From contig NZ_VUNH01000002.1 of NCBI RefSeq assembly GCF_009695745.1, positions 62,001 to 126,000 of the forward strand: a DNA stretch of 64,000 nucleotides, in the 5' to 3' direction. The stretch's first letter is position 1; every line of letters starts with the position of its first letter. The notes beneath the pieces were generated by a model. It worked only from the letters and a program-made list of their open reading frames with translations, made no database searches and had not been told where the DNA came from. The DNA comes from Pyramidobacter porci (GTDB lineage Bacteria; Synergistota; Synergistia; Synergistales; Dethiosulfovibrionaceae). Positions 1 through 11,732 of this stretch are shown here, piece after piece. The position numbers were made by a program, and so were the translations under genes.

Positions 1-66
1 AGTACACCGCTGAGCAGCTTCAGAATCAGTAAAATCGAGGTATAAGCAGAAAAAGAAGTTGAATAT
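1..66 (+). other. Tail of an upstream gene (unresolved)
   Basis: The frame starting at base 3 is open to a TAA at 30-32 and the frame starting at base 1 is open to a TAA at 43-45. Either could be the C-terminus of a gene that begins before the window. In comparable FetMP/P19 loci the gene upstream of the DUF2318 protein encodes a P19-type periplasmic iron protein or an FTR1 permease, but ten codons cannot prove this. Confidence 0.2.
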
Positions 67-119: not shown

Positions 120-1406
120 TTGAGATCGGGGGTCAGTCCCATTTTAAAATATCTTGTTGCGGTCACGGATCATCTTGCCTCCTTATCGTTTTTGACCGGC
201 CTGATCCTCAGCTTCGTGATGCGGAGCAGAGAGAGAATCGGCCGTCTGATCGCCTGGGGCGGAATGGCGGCGGGGATCCTTCTCGGCTTTGTGGTCTTCG
301 GAGTGCGCATGTACGATCCCAAAGGCATGAATCTGCCTCTGACGCGGTTCAACCGCTGGGTCGTCGTCGCCGTTGCCGCCGTCGCCGCCGCGGCCCTTCT
401 GTGGGCGTCGCTTTCGCTGCTGCTGCGTCGCGTCGAAGGCGTCTGGCGGACGCTGGGCGTCGTGCTGCTGGCGGCGCTGATGGGCGTCGCCTTTATGTAT
501 CTGACGCCGTCCGTGATTCAATTCACTCAGGAGTTCGTCTATTTCGGCGAGAGCGGCCTCAGCACCAAGGCTCTGCTGCGCGCGATCGGCTTTGCCCTCG
601 GGCTCGTGCTGTGCCTGCTGCTGGGCTTGAGTTCGTTCAAAGTCCATCGCGCTCTGGGCGAGCGCGGCGGCATGCTGTTTCTCGGCGCGTCCGTGCTCTT
701 TTTCTTCGTCGAGTACGGCTTCAACGCCGTCGCTTCGCTGCAAAGGCTGAAGATGATCCCGCTCAGCGATCTCGTGTTCGAGATCATGGTCCTGGGCGAC
801 GAATATGGAAATTACTTCCTCTTCGCGCAGCTGCTGCTGGGGCTGGTCATGCTGCTGTGGGTGATCGTCACGCACCGGCGCCCCGAAGGGGAGTTCGCCA
901 ACCGCGCCTTGCTGCGCAGGGAAAAAGCCCGTCTGCGCAACTGCCGCCGCTGGTCCTGGAGCCTGTTCTCCTGGGCCCTGGCGGCGGCGCTGACGGTGAC
1001 GGTCCTTCATTATTACGACACCAAGCCGCCGGCGGAAGTGCCGCCGGAAGCTTACGATCTGAGCGACGGCGTTATTTCCATAGATCTCGCTCAGGTGTCC
1101 GACGGGCATCTGCACAAGTTCTCCTATATCACGCCGAACGGCTACGACGTGCGCTTTCTCGTCGTCAAAAAGCCCGTCGGCACGGCCTACGGCGTCGGGC
1201 TGGACGCCTGCGAGATCTGCGGCATCGCCGGCTATTTCGAGCGCGGCGACGACGTGGTGTGCCGCCGCTGCGACGTGGTCATGAACAAGAACACGATCGG
1301 CTTCAAGGGCGGCTGCAACCCGATCCCTTTCCCGTACGAGGTGCGGGAAGGACGGATCTCCATCGATGTCAGGGAGCTCGAGCGCCACGAACGGCGCTTC
1401 AGGTAG
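120..1406 (+). CDS. DUF2318 membrane protein of a Fet/P19-like locus
   Basis: Integral membrane protein of about 428 residues. The first 300 residues hold many hydrophobic helices. The C-terminal 120 residues form a DUF2318 domain with a CEIC pair (about 364-367), a CRRC pair (381-384) and a GGCNP motif (398-402), which look like metal or redox ligands. In Campylobacter (Cj1660) and the E. coli FetMP locus the same family sits directly before two FtsX permeases and an ATPase, the order seen here, so a role in extracytoplasmic iron handling is likely. The start is uncertain. TTG at 120 has no ribosome binding site, whereas ATT at 141 follows a GGGGG run and opens a natural N-terminus (ILKYLVAVTDHL). 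Confidence 0.8.
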   Translation: MRSGVSPILKYLVAVTDHLASLSFLTGLILSFVMRSRERIGRLIAWGGMAAGILLGFVVFGVRMYDPKGMNLPLTRFNRWVVVAVAAVAAAALLWASLSLLLRRVEGVWRTLGVVLLAALMGVAFMYLTPSVIQFTQEFVYFGESGLSTKALLRAIGFALGLVLCLLLGLSSFKVHRALGERGGMLFLGASVLFFFVEYGFNAVASLQRLKMIPLSDLVFEIMVLGDEYGNYFLFAQLLLGLVMLLWVIVTHRRPEGEFANRALLRREKARLRNCRRWSWSLFSWALAAALTVTVLHYYDTKPPAEVPPEAYDLSDGVISIDLAQVSDGHLHKFSYITPNGYDVRFLVVKKPVGTAYGVGLDACEICGIAGYFERGDDVVCRRCDVVMNKNTIGFKGGCNPIPFPYEVREGRISIDVRELERHERRFR

Positions 1407-1420
1407 GAGGCGGGGCATAC

Positions 1421-2707
1421 ATGTTCTGGAGAATGATTTGGCGGACGCTCGCCCGCCAGAAGAGCAAGATGCTGATGATCGCTTTCACCGTGATTCTCGG
1501 CGTGTCGCTGTCCACGGCCATGATGAACGTCATGCTGGGCGTCGGCGACAAGGTCAACCGCGAGCTGAAAGTTTACGGCGCCAACATCACCGTGCGCCAC
1601 AAGGAAGCGGCGCTGATGAACGATCTCTACGGCCTCAGCGAGGGGCTGGGCGTCACCGACAAATTCCTGTACGAAGAGGACGTGCTCAAGCTCAAGACCA
1701 TCTTCTGGGGTTTCAACATCATCGACTTCGCGCCGATGATCGACGGGCGCGCCCAGGTCAACGGCGGCGAGGAAGCGCCGCTGCTGGGGACCTGGGTGCA
1801 GAAGCACGCCGTGCTGAACACCGGCGAGGAGATCGACACCGGCCTGCGCCCGCTGCGCAACTGGTGGCAGATCGACCTGAAAGGCGACTGGCTCGGCGAA
1901 AACGACGACGATTTCGTCATGGTCGGCGGCGCGCTGGCGTCGCGGCTTCGGACCGAGGTCGGCAGCGAACTGACGCTGACTCATGGCGGGATGACGAAAA
2001 AAGTGACCGTCAAAGGCATTTTCAACGACGGCGGCGCTGCCGACGGCCAGATCGTCGGCACGCTGAAAATGGTGCAGGAACTCATGGGCCTGCCCGGCAA
2101 GGTCTCGCGCCTCGAAGTCTCGGCGCTGACCACGCCCGACAACGACCTGGCGCGCAAGGCCGCCCAGGATCCTCGCGGCCTCTCGCCCGACGAGTACGAG
2201 ACGTGGTACTGCACGGCCTACGTCAGCGCCATTTGCCATCAGATCCAGGAAGTGGTGCGCGACGGCGTGGCCAAGGCCGTGCGTCAGGTGGCGGAGTCGG
2301 AAGGGACGATCCTCAGCAAGACGACGCTGCTGATGATCCTGATCACGATCCTCAGCTCCATTGGCTCGGCGCTGGCGATCTCCAACCTGATCACGGCCAG
2401 CGTGATCGAGCGCAGCCAGGAACTGGGCCTGCTCAAGGCACTGGGCGCCCGCAACTATCAGATCGTGCTGCTGGTGCTGGTCGAGGTGATGGTGACCAGC
2501 CTGTTCGGCGGCGCGCTGGGGTACTTCCTCGGCATCGGCTTCGCGCAGATCATCGGCCGGACGGTCTTCGGCTCCTCCATCGAGATCGCCCAGATGGTGA
2601 TCGTGATCGTGGCCGTGATCCTGTTCTTCGTGACGCTGTTCGGTTCGATCCCCGCGATCCGTTATCTGCTGAACCTGAAACCGACGGAGGTCCTCCATGG
2701 CAAATAA
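1421..2707 (+). CDS. MacB/FtsX-type ABC permease (first of Fet-like pair)
   Basis: Inner-membrane permease of 428 residues. One helix near residues 17-37 is followed by a periplasmic MacB-like domain of about 250 residues and three C-terminal FtsX helices (about 305-425). AGGAGG at 1405-1410 fixes the ATG at 1421; the open frame extends further upstream but overlaps the DUF2318 gene. It is homologous in layout to Cj1661/FetB-type proteins. The gene overlaps the next permease by 11 bases, so the two are probably translated together as partners. MacB-type systems usually do mechanical or export work rather than classical import, so its exact role in iron handling is inferred from context. Confidence 0.85.
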   Translation: MFWRMIWRTLARQKSKMLMIAFTVILGVSLSTAMMNVMLGVGDKVNRELKVYGANITVRHKEAALMNDLYGLSEGLGVTDKFLYEEDVLKLKTIFWGFNIIDFAPMIDGRAQVNGGEEAPLLGTWVQKHAVLNTGEEIDTGLRPLRNWWQIDLKGDWLGENDDDFVMVGGALASRLRTEVGSELTLTHGGMTKKVTVKGIFNDGGAADGQIVGTLKMVQELMGLPGKVSRLEVSALTTPDNDLARKAAQDPRGLSPDEYETWYCTAYVSAICHQIQEVVRDGVAKAVRQVAESEGTILSKTTLLMILITILSSIGSALAISNLITASVIERSQELGLLKALGARNYQIVLLVLVEVMVTSLFGGALGYFLGIGFAQIIGRTVFGSSIEIAQMVIVIVAVILFFVTLFGSIPAIRYLLNLKPTEVLHGK

Positions 2708-3905
2708 AAGACGGAAGATGTACCTCAAGATGGTGACGAGTTCGCTGATCCGGCGCGCCTCGCGGCTGATCATCGCCGTGCTGGCCGTCGCCATCGGCGC
2801 TACCATCCTCTCGGGTCTGGTGACGATCTATTATGACATTCCGCGCCAGCTGGGACGGGAATTCCGCTCCTATGGCGCCAATTTGCTGCTGCTGCCCAAG
2901 GGCGACGCGCGCATCAGCCGCGAAAACCTCGAACGGGTGCGCGCCCTCATCGGCCCCGACCGCATCGTCGGCATGGCGCCGTACCGTTACCAGACGGTGA
3001 AGATCAACGAGCAGCCCTATATCATCGCCGGCACCGACCTGCCGCAGGCGAAGAAGAACAGCCCCTTCTGGTACGTGGAGGGGGACTGGGGCAGCGCCGC
3101 CGCGCCCGACCGGGTGATGGTCGGCAAGGAGATCGCCGAGACGCTGAATTTGTCCATCGGCGACACGTTCACCGTGCTGGGCGTCAAATACGGCCGCCGC
3201 GCCGAAGCCTCCGGGCAGAACCTGTCGGCGGAAGAGAACCGCGGCCGCGACGAAGGCGAACAGAACTTCGCCAAGAAACTGACCGTCTGCGGCATCGTCA
3301 CCACCGGCGGCGCCGAGGAAGGCTTCATCTTCGCCGACGTGGACATGCTCGACAATCTGATCGGCGACAGCTTCCGCGGCGACGTGGTGGAGTGCAGCGT
3401 CGTCGCCGATTCCGAGCAGATGGAAGAACTGACTGCCGACCTTGAGACGAAGATGCCCGGCATCCAGCCGCGCGCCGTGCGCCGTCTCACCCAGTCGCAG
3501 GACATCGTGCTGGGCAAGCTGCAGGCGCTGGTGCTGCTGGTTACGGTGGTGGTGCTGATCATCACGATGATCTCGGTCTCCACCACGATGATGGCCATGG
3601 TCGCCGAGCGCCGCCGCGAGATCGCCCTGAAAAAGGCGCTTGGCGCCGAGAACCGCCTCGTCATGGGCGAACTGCTCGGCGAAGGCGCGCTGCTGGGCTT
3701 CATCGGCAGCGTCATCGGCGTGTTCCTCGGCTTCGAGTTCGCGCAGCGCGTCAGCCTCAGCGTCTTCGGCCGGGCCATCAACTTCCAGTGGCCCATCATC
3801 CCCGTTACCATCGCGGTCTTCATCGCGATCACCGTGCTCGCTTCGATCCTGCCGGTGCGCCGGGTAATGGACATTCATCCCGCGATCGTGCTCAGGGGGG
3901 AATAA
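2697..3905 (+). CDS. MacB/FtsX-type ABC permease (second of Fet-like pair)
   Basis: Permease of 402 residues with a basic N-terminus, a first helix at about residues 20-44, a periplasmic domain and three C-terminal FtsX helices after residue 275. The ATG at 2697 lies inside the last codons of the preceding permease, with GGAGGTCC just upstream. The pair probably forms a heterodimer driven by the ATPase that starts 2 bases after its stop. It corresponds by position to Cj1662/FetC in the P19 iron systems. Confidence 0.85.
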   Translation: MANKRRKMYLKMVTSSLIRRASRLIIAVLAVAIGATILSGLVTIYYDIPRQLGREFRSYGANLLLLPKGDARISRENLERVRALIGPDRIVGMAPYRYQTVKINEQPYIIAGTDLPQAKKNSPFWYVEGDWGSAAAPDRVMVGKEIAETLNLSIGDTFTVLGVKYGRRAEASGQNLSAEENRGRDEGEQNFAKKLTVCGIVTTGGAEEGFIFADVDMLDNLIGDSFRGDVVECSVVADSEQMEELTADLETKMPGIQPRAVRRLTQSQDIVLGKLQALVLLVTVVVLIITMISVSTTMMAMVAERRREIALKKALGAENRLVMGELLGEGALLGFIGSVIGVFLGFEFAQRVSLSVFGRAINFQWPIIPVTIAVFIAITVLASILPVRRVMDIHPAIVLRGE

Positions 3906-3907
3906 AA

Positions 3908-4600
3908 TTGGGTAAGATTCTCGAATTGAAAGATGTTTCCAAGATCTACGGCGACCTGCACGCCCTCTCGCATATCAACCTGACGGTGAACGAAGGCGAG
4001 TGGCTGTCCATCATGGGGCCTTCCGGCTCCGGCAAGACGACGATGCTGAACGTCATCGGCTGCATGGACACTCCCTCGGAGGGCGGCGTCATCCTCGACG
4101 GCGCCGACATCAGCCGCGAGAGCGCCGCGAACCTGACGAAGATCCGCCGCGACAAGATCGGGCTGATCTTTCAGCAGTTCCATCTGATCAGCTATCTTTC
4201 CGCGCTCGAAAACGTCATGGTCGCTCAGTACTACCACAGCATGCCCGACGAAAAAGAGGCCATGGAGGCGCTGGAAAAAGTCGGACTGGGACAGCGCGCC
4301 CATCACCTGCCCACGCAGCTTTCCGGCGGCGAGCAGCAGCGCGTCTGCATCGCCCGCGCGCTGATCAACTCGCCCCGCATCCTGCTCGGCGACGAGCCGA
4401 CGGGCAACCTCGACGAGGAGAACGAGCGCATCGTCGTGGACATCTTCCACCGTCTGCACGACGAGGGCGTCACGCTGGTCGTCGTTACACACGACCCGGA
4501 AGTCGGCGACGTGGCGCAGCGCAAGATCGTGCTGGAGCACGGCAAGATCGTTCAGGACATCGACCAGCGCGCCAATTTCAGCGGCGTGCTGAGAGCGTAA
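3908..4600 (+). CDS. ABC transporter ATPase, MacB/LolD type (Fet-like locus)
   Basis: Cytoplasmic ATPase of 230 residues with all expected motifs: Walker [10 protein letters not shown] (37-45), signature LSGGEQQR (near 139), Walker B LLGDEPTG (near 158-165) and an H-loop THD. The start is TTG at 3908, preceded by an AGGGGGG ribosome binding site. The open frame runs further upstream, but those codons lie inside the permease gene, and the family N-terminus ([12 protein letters not shown]) begins here. It would energise the two preceding permeases and is followed after 15 bases by the FMN-binding gene. Confidence 0.88.
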
Positions 4601-4615
4601 AGGAGAGCGCGCATC

Positions 4616-5026
4616 GTGAAGAAAACTCTGATTTTGATCGCCGTCTTCGTTGTGATCGGCGGCGTTTTCGCCATGAAGGACAAGTTCTTCGGCGTCACGT
4701 ACCGGGACGGCGTCTACGAGGGCGAGTATCAGGCCGACGACGGCGAAAACACCAAAGTGATCCTGACGCTCAAGGACAACAGGATCGTAGCCTGCGTTCT
4801 CGAAGCCCGCGACGCGCTGGGCAACATCAAGGACGAAAACCACGGCAGGGACGGCTCGGCCGAGGATTTTCGCCAGGCGCAGCGCGCCGTGCGCGAGATG
4901 AAAAAGTATCCGGACATGCTGATCGAGGCGCAGGACGTGGACACGATGGACAGCATTTCCGGCGCGTCCGTCACCTACAAGGCCATGCGGATCGCCGTGC
5001 ATGAAGCTTTGAAAAAGGCGAGGTAA
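4616..5026 (+). CDS. Membrane-anchored FMN-binding domain protein
   Basis: Small exported protein of 136 residues. A single N-terminal helix (about 3-21) is followed by an FMN-binding domain of the NqrC/RnfG C-terminal type. Residues 112-118 read DSISGAS, which fits the flavinylation motif D-x-x-S/T-G-A-S/T used by ApbE, so FMN may be attached covalently at Ser118 outside the cytoplasmic membrane. GTG start with AAGGAGAG upstream. Its place within a Fet-like iron locus, where Campylobacter and E. coli carry thioredoxin-like proteins, suggests it supplies extracytoplasmic redox power, for example for ferric reduction. That role is inference. Confidence 0.82.
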   Translation: MKKTLILIAVFVVIGGVFAMKDKFFGVTYRDGVYEGEYQADDGENTKVILTLKDNRIVACVLEARDALGNIKDENHGRDGSAEDFRQAQRAVREMKKYPDMLIEAQDVDTMDSISGASVTYKAMRIAVHEALKKAR

Positions 5027-5030
5027 CATT

Positions 5031-5462
5031 GTGAACATGCTGTTCGGAGCTTTGAACGTTCTGCTCGGGCTGGTCCTGTCGCTGACGCCGTTCCGGCTGG
5101 CGCCGGTCTGTTCGCAGATGACCCCTCACGGCGCCCCCATGAAGTGCTACTACTCCGGGCTGTTTATCGTCGCCATGGGCGCGGCCGTCGTTGTTTTGTC
5201 GCTGTTTGCGCTGCTGCGCCGCGGGCGCGGCTGGGCCGCCGTTTTGGCGGCGTTTGCAGCCATTGTTGCGGCGATCGCCTGCCTGCTCGTTCCTGCCGGC
5301 GTGATCCCGCTGCGCGGCGCCGGGTGGGTCTGCGGTCTGTGCGGCGATGCTTCGCACGCCTGCCGCGCCGTGACGATGCCGTTTGTGCGGAAGTTCGCCG
5401 CCGCCATCGTCGCGGTGAACGTCGTCTCGCTGATCCTGTCTTTCGTCAGAGGAGGCCGCTGA
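5031..5462 (+). CDS. DUF4418 family membrane protein
   Basis: Protein of 143 residues with four predicted membrane helices, resembling DUF4418. Conserved-looking features lie in the first external loop: a VCSQM segment followed by an MKCYYSG segment, both with cysteine and methionine that could bind a metal. GTG start at 5031, with an ATG two codons later as alternative. It starts 4 bases after the FMN-binding gene and ends 2 bases before the next permease, so it belongs to the same operon. The function of the family is unknown; metal sensing or electron transfer beside the flavoprotein is possible. Confidence 0.72.
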   Translation: MNMLFGALNVLLGLVLSLTPFRLAPVCSQMTPHGAPMKCYYSGLFIVAMGAAVVVLSLFALLRRGRGWAAVLAAFAAIVAAIACLLVPAGVIPLRGAGWVCGLCGDASHACRAVTMPFVRKFAAAIVAVNVVSLILSFVRGGR

Positions 5463-5464
5463 AG

Positions 5465-6673
5465 ATGACGGGTGCTTCCCTGAGCACGGAGGCCATCGCG
5501 CGCAAAAACATCCGCCGCCGCCCCTGGCGGAGTTTCTGCCTTGTGCTCGCGGTGCTGCTGTTCTCGTTTTTCCTGTACGCGGGCACGGTCATGTCGGTCG
5601 GTCTGTCCGGCGGCGCGCGCAGCGCCGCCGACCGACTCGGCGCCGACGTCATCGTCGTGCCGGCGGGGTACGACCCCCACATCGACAGCGTGATCCTCTC
5701 GGGCAGGCCGTCGATGTTCTACCTGCCCAAGGACGTTCTCGAGCGTCTGCGGGACGTGGAAGGGATCGACCGCATGTCGCCGCAGACTTTTCTGGCGACG
5801 ATCCGCGCCTCCTGCTGTTCCTATCCGCTGCAGATCGTCGGCGTGGATTACGAGAGCGACTTCATCGTGCGCCCGTGGCTGGAAGCGACGTTGGGGCGCG
5901 GCCTTAAAGACGGCGAGCTGATCGTCGGCTACCGCGTCAACGGCGAACCTGGCGAGCGGCTGCATTTCTTCGGCGTCGATCTGCCCGTCGCCGGAAGGCT
6001 GGAACAGACGGGCATGAGGTTCGATTCGACGGTTTTCGTGACGCGCAAGACGGTGACTGACTTGGCCAAGGCGGCGGAAAACATCTTCAAACACCCGCTC
6101 GCCAGCGACGGCAGCCGCGTCTCGACGGTGATGGTCAAGCTGAAGCCGGGCTACGATTCGGTGAAAGTGGCGCAGGAGATCAACCGCCGCTTCGGCGACG
6201 ACGATATTTTCGCGCTGTTCAGCAAGAAGTTCGTCAACAGCATCGCCTCTTCGCTGACGCTGGTTTCGTGGATGATCCGCGGCGGCATCGGTCTGGTCTG
6301 GCTGCTGGCGGTGATCGTCATCGCGCTGCTGTTCTCCGTGACCATGAACGAGCGCAGGGTCGAGATCGGCGTTCTGCGCGCCATCGGCGCCAGCCGAGGC
6401 AAAATCCTCGCCCTGGCTCTGACCGAGGCGTCGCTGATCAGCCTCTACGGCGCGGCGCTGGGCGTGTCTCTCGGCGCGGCGGCCGTGGCCGTCGTCAGCC
6501 CGATGGTGGCGGACGCGCTGAAACTGCCGTTCCTGCTGCCGTCCTGGACGGCGCTGATCCTGCTGGGCGCCGCCTCCGTGGCGGTCTCCGTCCTTACGGG
6601 CGTGCTGAGCGCGCTGTTCTCGGCGCGCCGGGCCAGCCGCGCCGACATTTACGACACGCTGAGGGGGAACTGA
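5465..6673 (+). CDS. MacB/FtsX-type ABC permease (second module)
   Basis: Permease of 402 residues. The N-terminal helix lies at about 25-45, the MacB-like periplasmic domain includes a Cys-Cys pair in the stretch RASCCSYPL, and FtsX helices begin near residue 270. AGGAGG at 5451-5456 supports ATG 5465. Unlike the first module it has a single permease gene, so it probably works as a homodimer with the ATPase that follows. It is adjacent to the FMN-binding and DUF4418 genes and may be their functional partner. Confidence 0.83.
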   Translation: MTGASLSTEAIARKNIRRRPWRSFCLVLAVLLFSFFLYAGTVMSVGLSGGARSAADRLGADVIVVPAGYDPHIDSVILSGRPSMFYLPKDVLERLRDVEGIDRMSPQTFLATIRASCCSYPLQIVGVDYESDFIVRPWLEATLGRGLKDGELIVGYRVNGEPGERLHFFGVDLPVAGRLEQTGMRFDSTVFVTRKTVTDLAKAAENIFKHPLASDGSRVSTVMVKLKPGYDSVKVAQEINRRFGDDDIFALFSKKFVNSIASSLTLVSWMIRGGIGLVWLLAVIVIALLFSVTMNERRVEIGVLRAIGASRGKILALALTEASLISLYGAALGVSLGAAAVAVVSPMVADALKLPFLLPSWTALILLGAASVAVSVLTGVLSALFSARRASRADIYDTLRGN

Positions 6674-6674
6674 G

Positions 6675-7361
6675 ATGGGCGCCGTTCTGGAACTGAAAGA
6701 TCTGTGCAAAGGATATTCGCGCGGCGGCCGTTCGTTCTTCGCCGTGGACCATGTGTCGCTGACCGTCGCGAGCAGGGATTTTGTCAACGTCGTCGGCCGT
6801 TCCGGCAGCGGCAAATCGACGCTGCTGAACCTGGCGGCGGGGATGCTGGCGCCCACGTCCGGCGCCGTGGAACTGGACGGCGTCGACCTGGCCGGCAAAA
6901 GCGACGCGGAACTGTCGCGGCTGCGCTGCGACAGCATCGGCTTCATCCCCCAGGGAGCGGCGGCGCTGCCCAATCTGACCGTGCTGGAGAACGTGATGCT
7001 GCCGTTCTGCCTCTATCCGCGCGGCGGCGACGGCGAAGGCGCGGCCCGTTTGCTGCTGGAGCGCTTCGGCATCGGCGCGGCGGCCGGCTCGTACCCGGGC
7101 GAACTGTCCGGCGGCGAATTGCGCCGGGTTCTGATCGCCCGCGCGCTGATCAACCGTCCCCGATTGGTGATCGCCGATGAGCCGACGTCGGATCTCGACG
7201 TCGAGTCCAGCCGCGGCATCATGGAGGAATTCTCTCGTCTCAACGCCGAGGGCGTGACGCTGCTGATCGTCTCGCACGACCTCGACTCGCTGAGATACGG
7301 CACGCGGGTCTGCACGATGAGCGAAGGCCGCCTGCACGAGGGCAACCTGTTCGAAGCGTAA
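6675..7361 (+). CDS. ABC transporter ATPase, MacB/LolD type (second module)
   Basis: ATPase of 228 residues with Walker A GRSGSGKST (near 39-47), signature LSGGELRR, Walker B VIADEPTSDLD and an SHD H-loop. The start lies 1 base after the stop of the permease it must serve. It is the last gene of the operon and is followed by a strong terminator. The Q-loop region (FIPQG) is intact, so it should be an active ATPase. Confidence 0.87.
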   Translation: MGAVLELKDLCKGYSRGGRSFFAVDHVSLTVASRDFVNVVGRSGSGKSTLLNLAAGMLAPTSGAVELDGVDLAGKSDAELSRLRCDSIGFIPQGAAALPNLTVLENVMLPFCLYPRGGDGEGAARLLLERFGIGAAAGSYPGELSGGELRRVLIARALINRPRLVIADEPTSDLDVESSRGIMEEFSRLNAEGVTLLIVSHDLDSLRYGTRVCTMSEGRLHEGNLFEA

Positions 7362-7466: not shown

Positions 7467-8171
7467 TCACGATCGCCTGCGCCAGACGGCGGCGGCGTTG
7501 CTGCGGGAGATCAGTTCGTCCACGGGAATGCCGGCGGGGCAGATGTCGCGGCAGGCCAGCGACGTTCCGCAGCCGGAGTAATAACGTCTGACGTATTGTT
7601 TCGCCGCTTCGGCGCGATGGGCGGCGTCGCTTTCCTGATTGAAAATGCGGTAGGCGCCGACGGCCGCCGGCGCGCCGGCGAAGCCGCCGTCGGCGCGGAA
7701 ATTCGGGCAGATTTCGAGGCAGCAGCCGCACATCAGGCAGCGGGCCGACTGAAAGCGCAGTTCATGGGTCTTTTCGCGCATCACGGCCTTGCCGGAGAGC
7801 CAGAGGTGGATTTTTTTCAGCTGTTCGAAGATGACGCCGCGGTCGACGACGAGATCGGCGACGAGCGGGAACTTGCTCAGCGGCTCGAGCGTGACCGTCC
7901 GCCCCAGAGAGCCGAGAAAGGTTTTGCAGGCCAGCGTGGGCAGGCCGTTGACGCGCATGGCGCAGGCGCCGCACTTGCCGCAGACGCAGCCGCATTCCCA
8001 GCGGATGGGCGGCGCTTCGCGGCCGTTCAGGTCGATCAGCGGCGTGCGCGCGTTCAGTTCGCGCAGCGCGGCGGCGACGGACCCGGACCCGTCGCATTCG
8101 CAGGCGAATTCCTGCCAGAAAACGGGCGCGCCGGGGCCGGCGGCGCGTTTGACGCGGACGACGAAGTTCAC
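7467..8171 (-). CDS. Fumarate reductase/succinate dehydrogenase iron-sulfur subunit
   Basis: Protein of 234 residues that carries electrons between the flavoprotein and the membrane subunit. An N-terminal plant-type [2Fe-2S] domain shows the CxxxxCxxC pattern (CGCVCGKCGAC) and a later LACKTF cysteine. The C-terminal half has CLMCGCCLEICPN for a [4Fe-4S] cluster and CGTSLACRDICP for the third cluster. The GTG start at 8171 has AAAGGAGG upstream and overlaps the flavoprotein stop as GTGA. The open frame continues upstream only as a shadow of the flavoprotein gene. Confidence 0.88.
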   Translation of the reverse strand: MNFVVRVKRAAGPGAPVFWQEFACECDGSGSVAAALRELNARTPLIDLNGREAPPIRWECGCVCGKCGACAMRVNGLPTLACKTFLGSLGRTVTLEPLSKFPLVADLVVDRGVIFEQLKKIHLWLSGKAVMREKTHELRFQSARCLMCGCCLEICPNFRADGGFAGAPAAVGAYRIFNQESDAAHRAEAAKQYVRRYYSGCGTSLACRDICPAGIPVDELISRSNAAAVWRRRS

Positions 8172-9712
8172 GGGCGCTCGTCCTCCTTTCCGACGTCCTC
8201 GAACGTTACGGCGACGCGCGCGCCGTCGAAACGCGCCGCGCTGGTGCGGCGAAATCCGGCGTCGTCGCGTTCGGGAAAGTCGCTGCGGAAGTGCGCGCCG
8301 CGGCTTTCCTCGCGGGCCAGCGCGCTTTGCAGCAGAGCCCGGGCCAGCAGCGGCAGCGGGCCGGAAAGCTTTTCCAGTTCGCTCAGGCCCCGGGCCATGG
8401 TCTCGCCGTCGCGGACCACGCCGAGGCAGCGTTTGGTGATTTCGTGCATGGCGTTCACGTCCCGCTGCGGCGCAGGCGGCGGCGCTTCGCCGGCGCGACA
8501 GCGCGAGGGAGCGGCGGCCTCGTCGATGGCCGTGCGCGCCGCGATCTGCCCGCCGTAAATGGCGCCCAGCAGCGAGTTGCCGCCGAGGCGGTTGGCGCCG
8601 TGGTACAGGCAGGCGCACTCGCCGGCGGCGTACAGGTTTTCGAACCCGGCGACGCGGTGCGCGGCGTCCACCTTCAGGCCGCCCATGAAGTAGTGCAGTC
8701 CCGGCTCGACGGGGATGGGCCGCTCGCGCGGATCGAGGCGCAGGTAGGTGAGGCAGGTGTCGACCACGCCGGCCAGCTTGCGGCTCATCACGCTCTCGGG
8801 CAGCTCCGTCAGGTCGAGGAACACGGGGCCGCCGCGCCGCGCCCGCCAGATCTCGCGCGCGGTGACGTCGCGCGGCATCAGGTTGCCCAGCTCGGGATAT
8901 TTTTCTTCCATGAAGTACCAGCGCTCGCCGCCCCGCATCGTAAAAAGCCGCCCGCCTTCGCCGCGCGCGGCCTCGCTGATCAGGTGGCGTTTGCCCGAAG
9001 CGGGAACGGTGGTGGGGTGGTACTGGATGAACTCTCCGTCGGCGATCGCCGCGCCGAGGCGGAACAGTTCGGCCGCGGCTTCGCCCGTGTTGTCCAGCGA
9101 GCCGGTGGTGTCGGAAAAAAGGCCGTGCATGCCGCCGGTCGCCATGATCACCGCGTCGGCGCTGACTTCCGACAAAGAGCCGTCGAAACGGTCGCGCAGC
9201 AGCGCGCCGCCGCAGGCGCGCCCGTCGCACAGCAGCGTGACGAAATCGTGATGCGGCAGGCGGACGACTGTCCCTTCCGCTTCGCAGCGGCGCATGGCGT
9301 CGATCAGCGCCGTCATTATCTGTTTGCCCGTGCTGCTCTGGGCGAAGGCGGTGCGTTTTTTCTTCTGTCCGCCGAAATTGCGCTGGTCGATCTCGCCCCC
9401 CGCCCGATTGAACTGCGTCCCCATTTCCAGCAGGCGGCGCACGATGCCCGGCGCCGCCTCGGTCATGCCGCGCAGCGCCGCGGCGTCGGCCAGCCCGCAG
9501 CCGGCTTTGTACGTGTCGGCAAAGTGCTGCTGCGGACTGTCGTCCTCGCCCTTCACGTTCAGCGCCGCGTTGATGCCGCCTTCGGCCATCACCGACTGGG
9601 CGCGCTCCGACGGCATCGACGAGGCGAGCGCGGCGCGGCTCCCTTTTCCCGCGGCGGTCAGGGCGGCCGACAGGCCCGCCAGCCCCGCGCCGACGATCAG
9701 CACCGTCTTCAT
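8168..9712 (-). CDS. Fumarate reductase/succinate dehydrogenase-like flavoprotein lacking the covalent-FAD histidine
   Basis: FAD-dependent oxidoreductase of 514 residues. It keeps the dinucleotide fold (GAGLAG, 8-13) and the substrate and catalytic residues of the family: QYHPT, ARGEGG, PRDV and HGANRLGG. The histidine that carries covalent 8-alpha FAD in FrdA and SdhA (SHT in E. coli) is glutamine here (RAQS, Gln39), as in proteins that bind FAD without a covalent bond. The C-terminal region is shorter than the roughly 580 residues of classical FrdA/SdhA. L-aspartate oxidase is unlikely because subunit B and a membrane subunit are encoded next to it. Start and stop overlap the neighbouring genes by 4 bases. 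Confidence 0.85.
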   Translation of the reverse strand: MKTVLIVGAGLAGLSAALTAAGKGSRAALASSMPSERAQSVMAEGGINAALNVKGEDDSPQQHFADTYKAGCGLADAAALRGMTEAAPGIVRRLLEMGTQFNRAGGEIDQRNFGGQKKKRTAFAQSSTGKQIMTALIDAMRRCEAEGTVVRLPHHDFVTLLCDGRACGGALLRDRFDGSLSEVSADAVIMATGGMHGLFSDTTGSLDNTGEAAAELFRLGAAIADGEFIQYHPTTVPASGKRHLISEAARGEGGRLFTMRGGERWYFMEEKYPELGNLMPRDVTAREIWRARRGGPVFLDLTELPESVMSRKLAGVVDTCLTYLRLDPRERPIPVEPGLHYFMGGLKVDAAHRVAGFENLYAAGECACLYHGANRLGGNSLLGAIYGGQIAARTAIDEAAAPSRCRAGEAPPPAPQRDVNAMHEITKRCLGVVRDGETMARGLSELEKLSGPLPLLARALLQSALAREESRGAHFRSDFPERDDAGFRRTSAARFDGARVAVTFEDVGKEDERP

Positions 9713-10245
9713 AGCCACTGCCACTCCGCGTAATAAAAGATCAGCGCCGCCGCGAAAAACAGCAGCAGCAGCGAAAAGACCAGCAGCAGATCGCCCTGCC
9801 AGACGCGGTAGCGACAGACGCCGAGCGAGACCAGCAGCGGCCCCAGCCCCGCCAGCGCGTGCAGCGCCAGCGCCGCGGCCAAAAGGACCTGCACGAGCAT
9901 TTTCAGCGTCGTGAACTCGAACAGCACGAACTGCCCCGAGCGAACGCGGCCGAAAACGCCGACGTGCAGGCACAGCAGCAGGATCAGGGCCAGCCCGCTG
10001 AAACGGATCGCCCAGAAGCGCGCGTTCTGCCGCAGATACAGCGCGCCGCGCCGCGAAGCTCGCAGCGTCGGAACCGTCAGCGCCAGACCGATGGCGCCGT
10101 GCAGCGCCGCCAGCGCCATCGCCGTCCAGGCCGCGGCCTTGTCCGTGCCGGCGTTGACGCCCAGCAGCATGAAGCTGCCCGACATGCCGTGCCACGCCAG
10201 CAGGACCAGCAGCGCCGCCGTGACCAGCGCGTTGAGCCGCCTCAC
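9709..10245 (-). CDS. Cytochrome b-like membrane anchor subunit
   Basis: Protein of 178 residues with five hydrophobic helices and several helix histidines (WHGMSGS, ALHGAIG, CLHVGVF, ALHALAG) that could ligate heme b, as in the membrane anchors of FrdABC or SdhABC. Sequence similarity to a named family is not obvious, so the call rests on topology and gene order. GTG start at 10245; the stop overlaps the flavoprotein start as ATGA. Confidence 0.72.
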   Translation of the reverse strand: MRRLNALVTAALLVLLAWHGMSGSFMLLGVNAGTDKAAAWTAMALAALHGAIGLALTVPTLRASRRGALYLRQNARFWAIRFSGLALILLLCLHVGVFGRVRSGQFVLFEFTTLKMLVQVLLAAALALHALAGLGPLLVSLGVCRYRVWQGDLLLVFSLLLLFFAAALIFYYAEWQWL

Positions 10246-10742
10246 AGCGCGCGCTCCATTTCCCGCGTTTTCAGCGTCAGCGCGCCCAGCCGCCCGATGT
10301 CGCTCATGAGGATGACGCGCCGCGGCGCGACGAACAGGTCGTACTTGCCCGCGAGCGCCTTCGACCGCAGCATCACGGGCGAGCAGGGGCTCAGCTTCAC
10401 CTTCAGACCGGCGCGTTCCAGCCGGCGCGCCAGACGCCGCGCGTAAACGCCGAGCGCCTTTTCGTCGGTCGTGTAGGCCAGCTTCAGTTCCCGCGGACCG
10501 TGAAAGCGCGCCTCGCGGCCGAGCGCGGCCTCGCGCAGTCCGCGCAGCAGTTCGCCGGACGCGTCCGCGCGCGGGTTGACCGCCAGCAGGTAGAGCCCGT
10601 CCAGCTCCTTCCCGCCGGCGCGGGCGCGCCGCGCCCCCGAGGAAGCGGCCGAAAGCGCGTCGAGCCGCGAGCGGTAATAAAAGCCCGTTCCGGCGATCAG
10701 CCCCAGCGCCAGTGCCGTCGCCAAAAACGCGTGTTTGACCAT
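10242..10742 (-). CDS. Membrane-anchored protein, first gene of the fumarate reductase-like operon
   Basis: Protein of 166 residues with one N-terminal helix or signal anchor (about 3-20), then a basic alanine-rich linker. The C-terminal half (an AYTTDEKALGVYARRLA helix, then LKVKLSPCSP and YDLFVAPR) resembles the end of family 5 peptide-binding proteins, where a Rossmann-like lobe shows similar spacing. That similarity is by eye only. The ATG at 10742 has AAGGGTGAG before it; an in-frame ATG at 10787 is less likely. The gene overlaps the cytochrome b-like gene by 4 bases, so its product may bind a substrate or assist assembly. Function unknown. Confidence 0.65.
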   Translation of the reverse strand: MVKHAFLATALALGLIAGTGFYYRSRLDALSAASSGARRARAGGKELDGLYLLAVNPRADASGELLRGLREAALGREARFHGPRELKLAYTTDEKALGVYARRLARRLERAGLKVKLSPCSPVMLRSKALAGKYDLFVAPRRVILMSDIGRLGALTLKTREMERAL

Positions 10743-10878: not shown

Positions 10879-10907
10879 GTTCCCAACCTTCCGATCTTCT
10901 GTATAAT
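10879..10907 (+). promoter_or_regulatory. Promoter of the ankyrin gene
   Basis: A perfect TATAAT lies at 10902-10907, with a weak -35 (GTTCCC) 17 bases upstream, placing the start of transcription about 25 bases before the ATG at 10938. Confidence 0.5.
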
Positions 10908-10937
10908 GAAACTCATAAAGGAAGGGGAGTGAACGCC

Positions 10938-11732
10938 ATGAACGGAAAGTACGAACAGCTCCGCATCATTCCGGACGCGGACGGAGATTTCGTCGCCGGC
11001 AGCGAGCTGACGGCCGTGAAGCAGTTCATCGCGCTGTGCGCGCGCGGCCCGGCGGCGGAGATCGAAACGGCGCTGCGCCGGGGCGCCCTGTCCGGCGCCC
11101 GCGACGAGCGGGGCGTGACGCCGCTCATGGCGGCGCTGAACTCCAACTCCAGTCTGGCGGCGCTGAAAGTCCTGATCGAACACGGCGCGCCCCTGGAGGC
11201 GAGAAACGGCGAACACGCCACGCCCCTGATGATCGCCGCGCAGAAACGCAGCGCCGTCGTCGTCGACCTGCTCGTCGAAGCGGGAGCGAAAGTCGGCGCG
11301 CGCGACCGCCAGGGACGCACGGCGCTGATGTACGCCGCGGCCTACAACCGCGACGCCGCCGTCGTCGACATCCTGCTGCGCTCCGGCGCGCAGATCGACC
11401 GCGGCGACCGCGACGGCATGACCGCGCTGATGCACGCGCTCAAGCAGGTCGTGCCGTCGTCTGCCGTGGTGCGCCTCCTGCTGCTGGCGGGAGCCGACGC
11501 CAATTTCCGCGACAAAAGCGGCTGGACGCCGCTGAAACTGGCCGCCGTCTACAACAAAACGACCGAGGCGGCGGAGCTGCTCCTCGGCGCGGGGGCCCGC
11601 CCCGGCGGCGAAGCGGAGCAGGGCGCGCTGGCGGGATTGCTCCAACAGAATCCGCTGATGAGCGATGCCGACAAGACCCGTCTGAACAGCCGGCTGTCCC
11701 GTCTCTATTATTTCGAAAAGAAGGAACTGTGA
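10938..11732 (+). CDS. Ankyrin-repeat protein
   Basis: Cytoplasmic protein of 264 residues with no signal peptide or membrane helix. After about 35 residues it is made of five to six ankyrin repeats with the hallmark TPLM/TALM turns and the hydrophobic helix pairs (for example TPLMIAAQKRSAVVVDLLVEAG). Such proteins usually bind other proteins. The ATG at 10938 is preceded by AAGGGGAG; in-frame codons further upstream would run through the promoter. No partner gene is obvious next to it. Confidence 0.85.
   Translation: MNGKYEQLRIIPDADGDFVAGSELTAVKQFIALCARGPAAEIETALRRGALSGARDERGVTPLMAALNSNSSLAALKVLIEHGAPLEARNGEHATPLMIAAQKRSAVVVDLLVEAGAKVGARDRQGRTALMYAAAYNRDAAVVDILLRSGAQIDRGDRDGMTALMHALKQVVPSSAVVRLLLLAGADANFRDKSGWTPLKLAAVYNKTTEAAELLLGAGARPGGEAEQGALAGLLQQNPLMSDADKTRLNSRLSRLYYFEKKEL

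Follow-up and report, generated by a model that had tools for sequence, protein, structure and literature searches.

The window analysed here, a stretch of 64,000 nucleotides from Pyramidobacter porci (contig NZ_VUNH01000002.1, positions 62,001 to 126,000), contains two groups of genes which converge on each other (Table 1). The plus-strand genes upstream of and within the window make up a complete predicted P19 iron-uptake system. Like the P19/FTR1 (FetMP-FetABCDEF) system it comprises FTR1, P19, FtrD/DUF2318, two FtsX permeases, an ABC ATPase and an FMN_bind protein in the known order (PMC6083913), and an FMN-binding variant was already noted in Synergistetes when the P19 system was described (Liu et al., PMC6083913). 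Unlike the described systems, it is extended here by a DUF6921 gene and frdCAB. These four minus-strand genes are all joined by overlapping stop and start codons and therefore very likely form one operon (DUF6921-frdC-frdA-frdB). Divergent from this operon lies a gene for an ankyrin-repeat-like protein (10884-11732). The segment with DUF4418, FtsX and ABC ATPase genes (5031-7361) recurs next to frd in many clusters and might be a further transporter of the system in its own right.

Table 1 Features of the P19/FTR1 cluster and of the converging frd operon (positions are those of the window unless prefixed with C2)
Feature	Position	Strand	Evidence or remark
FTR1 gene, just before P19	C2:59927-61363	plus	PF03239, 105.4 bits
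P19 gene, 3' end	1..32 (whole gene C2:61436-62032)	plus	PF10634, 167.9 bits
FtrD-like (DUF2318) membrane Fe-S protein	120..1406	plus	PF10080, 103.6 bits
FtsX/MacB-type permease 1	1421..2707	plus	
FtsX/MacB-type permease 2	2697..3905	plus	
ABC ATPase	3908..4600	plus	
FMN_bind protein with flavinylation motif DSISGAS	4616..5026	plus	PF04205, 24.8 bits
DUF4418 membrane protein	5031..5462	plus	PF14387
FtsX/MacB-type permease 3	5465..6673	plus	
Second ABC ATPase	6675..7361	plus	
frdB-like iron-sulfur subunit, 234 aa; GTG start overlaps frdA stop	7467..8171	minus	Fer2_3 and Fer4_8
frdA-like flavoprotein subunit, 514 aa	8168..9712	minus	FAD_binding_2, 268.6 bits; all dicarboxylate-site residues kept
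Gln39 codon CAG, at the position of the FAD-bonding histidine	9596..9598	minus	aligns with His45 of E. coli FrdA/SdhA
frdC-like membrane anchor, 178 aa, His19/49/94/129	9709..10245	minus	predicted fold and invariant histidines
DUF6921 protein; N-terminal membrane helix, then D-x-x-S-A-A-S (DALSAAS); stop overlaps frdC start	10242..10742	minus	

In the sequence alignment Gln39 of the FrdA-like protein falls into the column of the RSHT histidine of E. coli FrdA and SdhA (residue 45 of the encoded proteins), and E. coli NadB has a serine at this place. The assignment agrees with PDB alignments of SdhA homologues. The glutamine in place of the histidine for covalent FAD, as read by the initial annotation, is thus borne out, and the alignment it had suggested as a check for another histidine at the flavin reveals none in the Gln39 segment. 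Its statement that the catalytic His, Arg and Glu motifs are kept holds for all seven catalytic residues: H233, T235, E246, R249, R288, H356 and R391 (numbered as in E. coli FrdA, initiator Met included) are present in 87 of 87 aligned relatives. The protein is shorter than E. coli FrdA, with 602 amino acids in the latter.

A scan of genome contigs yielded 278 relatives, of which the best 80 (46-92% identity) were kept; together with seven Clostridia genomes, some at about 40% identity, they form the alignment of 87 rows. Since glutamine occurs in 80/80 of the best 80 of the 278 relatives, within a segment of the [ED]RAQS type, and in 87/87 with the distant ones included (down to about 40% identity), chance is excluded and the residue is a family trait. 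In a quick tree, calculated by a method without mixture model and with long branches meeting among the outgroup rows, a branch of 100* parts the Gln-type sequences from NadB-like proteins and E. coli Sdh/Frd. The best-scoring curated models are those of B. subtilis-type SdhA, PRK08641 (448.7 bits) and TIGR01811 (361.2 bits), but both scores lie below the cut-offs of 855 and 541, and the flavin histidine is missing here; a further SdhA/FrdA model gave 356.9 bits (cut-off 567). As nearest histidine-bearing outgroup, no B. subtilis-type SdhA was found over the cut-off in the class search, and the plasmid search listed mainly NadB. The same frdA gene is present in Pyramidobacter sp. C12-8 (92% identity), and the search for relatives gave no FrdA match in other genera of the Dethiosulfovibrionaceae. 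Because the Synergistota gene is nested within a Bacillota clade in the quick tree, horizontal transfer appears likely.

The positions expected to bind cofactors are conserved in the other two subunits, too. In FrdB the cysteines 62, 67, 70, 82, 145, 148, 151, 155, 201, 207 and 211 are kept in 79-80 rows of the best 80 of the 278 relatives, and these 11 cysteines would provide the ligands for a 2Fe-2S, a 4Fe-4S and a 3Fe-4S cluster. FrdC has no Pfam match. Its predicted structure (pLDDT 89) matches subunit C of the Desulfovibrio gigas QFR (Z 13.9) and that of Wolinella succinogenes (Z 13.8), and the best structural match outside complex II reaches a Z of 9.7. As His19, His49, His94 and His129 are invariant even in distant members, FrdC is predicted to be a single large anchor with QFR fold and four histidines of the heme-ligand type. 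Judged by its genes, the fumarate reductase complex possesses a complete set of subunits (FrdA, FrdB and FrdC). It resembles the type B, diheme QFRs of W. succinogenes and D. gigas in its A, B and C subunits, the FrdC fold, the four histidines, the FrdB clusters and the dicarboxylate site. It differs from them by the glutamine for the FAD-histidine, the iron-uptake setting, a flavinylation-like partner and a host without the menaquinone markers tested.

This partner is the DUF6921 protein, whose structure was predicted as well. Behind the membrane helix the family shares the motif D-x-x-[STA]-x-A-[ST], in which Asp28 and Ala33 are invariant and position 34 is Ser or Thr in 33/33 rows. The motif resembles the ApbE target D-x-x-[ST]-G-A-[ST], so that the DUF6921 protein may be flavinylated; many rows have Ala, Ser, Lys or Arg at the Gly position, and the window protein has Ala. 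ApbE is present in 16/17 hosts and is missing only from a Methanobrevibacter that has no DUF6921 gene ahead of its frdCAB, and in an Acholeplasmatales MAG (L111/L210) apbE directly follows frdB. In this Methanobrevibacter (L070:5365-9823) FrdC-FrdA-FrdB, without DUF6921 or ApbE, lie beside an adenylosuccinate-lyase-like gene, that is, a fumarate producer. The soluble domain of DUF6921 has been solved (3noh) with no function assigned, and structure comparison reveals a resemblance to one lobe of metal-chelate and peptide binding proteins of the NikA/CntA/OppA type. No papers on DUF6921 were found in the open-licence literature.

The neighbourhood of the frd genes was compared in the best 80 of the 278 relatives, which had been chosen by FrdA similarity alone. 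P19-type genes lie alongside frd in 46/80 (40/80 if, more strictly, FMN_bind or FtrD is required), 20/80 have an HMA P-type ATPase, in most cases together with ArsR, and 6/80 have neither despite full flanks, as is the case for four distant members; the remaining 8/80 lie on contigs of insufficient length for this decision. The P19 locus and the frd locus overlap base for base in 18 genomes, and in many relatives from gut and rumen the frd operon is part of the P19 cluster. Nine clusters that were fetched all have the gene order FTR1-P19-FtrD-FtsX-FtsX-ABC-FMN_bind-DUF6921-FrdC; FrdA-FrdB comes directly after FrdC in eight of them, and in the ninth (L216) other genes lie in between. Because only 3 of 245 random Clostridia genomes possess P19, this adjacency is not due to chance. 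However, the same random sample contains seven frd carriers, none of which is among the three P19 genomes: two belong to the P-type ATPase group, four have a stand-alone frdCAB without DUF6921, and the contig of the remaining one is short. The link to iron thus characterises several lineages and not the family as a whole. The idea that the Gln-type family is always tied to iron was discarded in view of this sample, the stand-alone members and the P-type ATPase loci. Among the latter is a near-identical module of ArsR, a two-HMA P-type ATPase (SCPC motif), DUF6921 and FrdCAB in Blautia, Peptostreptococcus, Megasphaera and Levyella (L043-L058, L061, L063, e.g. L047:2102-8249), and its presence in distant families suggests a mobile element. 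A distant stand-alone member (L205:3425-7773) adjoins a Crp-type regulator and sulfite-reductase-like genes, which hints at another electron-transfer setting.

Fumarate reduction by the Gln39-type complex with non-covalent FAD is likely, because an acceptor histidine is missing and the dicarboxylate site, FrdB and FrdC are intact. In complex II homologues whose FAD is non-covalent, the flavin potential is about 90-150 mV lower, so that they reduce fumarate and do not oxidise succinate (PMC9557727). To this extent the view of the initial annotation that the complex works as a fumarate reductase can be maintained. Its further argument from a dispensable SdhE has no weight: SdhE (PF03937) is absent from the P. 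porci genome, but among 14 control genomes PF03937 occurs only in E. coli and Caulobacter and not in B. subtilis. As the SdhA of B. subtilis is nevertheless flavinylated, absence of SdhE is uninformative and was rejected as a sign of non-covalent FAD. Flavinylation without SdhE is also found in thermophilic archaea (PMC9557727). Reading the complex as an ordinary respiratory enzyme is incomplete, given an operon context that suggests iron uptake and a host in which the tested menaquinone genes are missing.

It has been proposed that permeases of the FTR1 type draw energy from the oxidation of Fe(II) (PMC11966278), and no electron partner has been defined for the P19/FMN systems (PMC8238504). 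We tentatively propose, with somewhat less than even confidence, that FrdCAB is a type-B diheme fumarate reductase with non-covalent FAD which serves as the electron-accepting end of FTR1/P19 iron uptake. Electrons of extracytoplasmic Fe(II) would be collected by FtrD and the FMN_bind protein and handed over to a membrane-tethered flavin on the DUF6921 protein, and from there to the hemes of FrdC. They would then pass through the FrdB clusters to the FAD of FrdA, which without a possible bond to histidine would be held non-covalently, and finally reduce cytoplasmic fumarate. What the analysis shows is the gene content, the conserved residues, the FrdC fold and the adjacency of the genes, whereas bound cofactors, the course of the electrons, a flavin on the DUF6921 protein and independence of quinone are parts of the proposal. 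Gln39 together with the active site, the FrdB cysteines, the FrdC fold and histidines, the overlapping stop and start codons, ApbE, the contiguity with P19 and the lack of menB and, in P. porci, of MqnA/D were counted in favour of this proposal. Counted against it were the members without iron genes, the random Clostridia sample, the lack of heme synthesis markers, the Ala for Gly in the window DUF6921 protein and the iron-reducing role which Liu et al. (PMC6083913) and Meheust et al. (PMC8238504) favour for the FMN protein of P19 clusters. The farther-reaching claim that FTR1/P19 iron import is driven by fumarate as the anaerobic oxidant, by way of a quinone-independent diheme reductase whose FAD is non-covalent, must be regarded as rather unlikely, though worth considering.

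The main rival of fumarate reduction coupled to iron import is fumarate respiration with scavenged menaquinone. FrdCAB would then be a conventional menaquinol:fumarate reductase for anaerobic respiration, supplied with quinone (and heme) by neighbours, and the shared cluster would reflect co-regulation by iron and no common electron path. This is a real possibility, albeit a doubtful one, and the FrdC fold and the four histidines, just as in quinol:fumarate reductases, as well as the existence of stand-alone frd members speak for it. However, Wolinella FrdC relies on Glu66, whereas in the family rows of FrdC no strongly conserved acidic residue is found except Asp152, and the contiguity with DUF6921 and FMN_bind is left unexplained. 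The host genomes speak against it as well: no menB over the cut-off was found in 17 of them, menB was not found in P. porci, and MqnA/D gave no match in P. porci and weak matches of this type in 4/17 other genomes. In its favour, such respiration with scavenged menaquinone has been proposed for Faecalibacterium, one of the carriers of the Gln-type family: it does not make menaquinone, quinone-producing neighbours stimulate it, and a fumarate reductase has been reported in it (PMC5738691). Hemes pose a similar problem. Neither ferrochelatase nor AhbD was detected over the cut-off in 18 host genomes despite the four invariant histidines, so that the hemes of FrdC would need to be scavenged, unless a different cofactor is bound.

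Electrons could also flow outward, from succinate or another cytoplasmic donor via FrdC to the extracytoplasmic flavins, so that iron would be reduced, as Fe(III) or in ferric chelates, before it is taken up. Such a direction would suit the reducing role suggested by Liu et al. and Meheust et al. and the similarity of the DUF6921 domain to a lobe of binding proteins, but it is improbable: the missing flavin bond makes it less likely, with Gln39 invariant and homologues with non-covalent FAD described as unable to oxidise succinate (PMC9557727). Two further explanations concern FrdA itself. It might act on another substrate such as aspartate and thus be an L-aspartate oxidase with iron-sulfur and membrane partners, which is quite unlikely. 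NadB also has non-covalent FAD with the same dicarboxylate site, fold and active site, lacks the flavin histidine and is of similar length, and its models match with 328.9 and 304.8 bits. These scores are far below their cut-offs (528 and 452.75) and below the best Sdh models, and the tree places the protein in a clade separate from NadB (branches of 99* and 100*); unlike NadB, it has FrdB and FrdC as partners. An identity as NadB was therefore rejected. The least probable explanation is that FAD is covalently bound via another residue, e.g. the family-specific His352, Tyr370 or Cys366, and that the enzyme behaves as an ordinary complex II. His352 and Tyr370 are indeed invariant in the 87 aligned relatives and do not occur in E. 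coli FrdA, SdhA or NadB, and other flavoenzymes bind their flavin covalently via Cys, Tyr or Asp, but we know of no complex II with a link to FAD via Cys, Tyr or another His.

That a diheme fumarate reductase of the Gln type is physically linked to P19 iron uptake is new in so far as no prior description was found in the open-licence literature. P19 systems are widespread in bacteria and are induced in C. jejuni by gut extracts, and the connection of their flavin or thioredoxin parts to the electrons of the cell is undefined; a fumarate reductase encoded within the P19 cluster would offer a concrete and testable answer as to the electron partner. If the proposed coupling holds true, it would explain why fumarate reductase is retained in gut Firmicutes without menaquinone synthesis, and it would call for caution against reading every Frd operon of a gut genome as fumarate respiration. 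In the yeast Fet3/Ftr1 system, oxygen and copper oxidases take the role which is proposed here for fumarate. The thiol:fumarate reductase TfrA of methanogens is a fumarate reductase as well, with partners and architecture unlike those of FrdCAB. Partners and architecture also differ in the flavocytochrome c fumarate reductases, which share the activity and of which the soluble bacterial ones have non-covalent FAD (PMC9557727); the flavocytochrome model matches the FrdA-like protein with only 129.8 bits.
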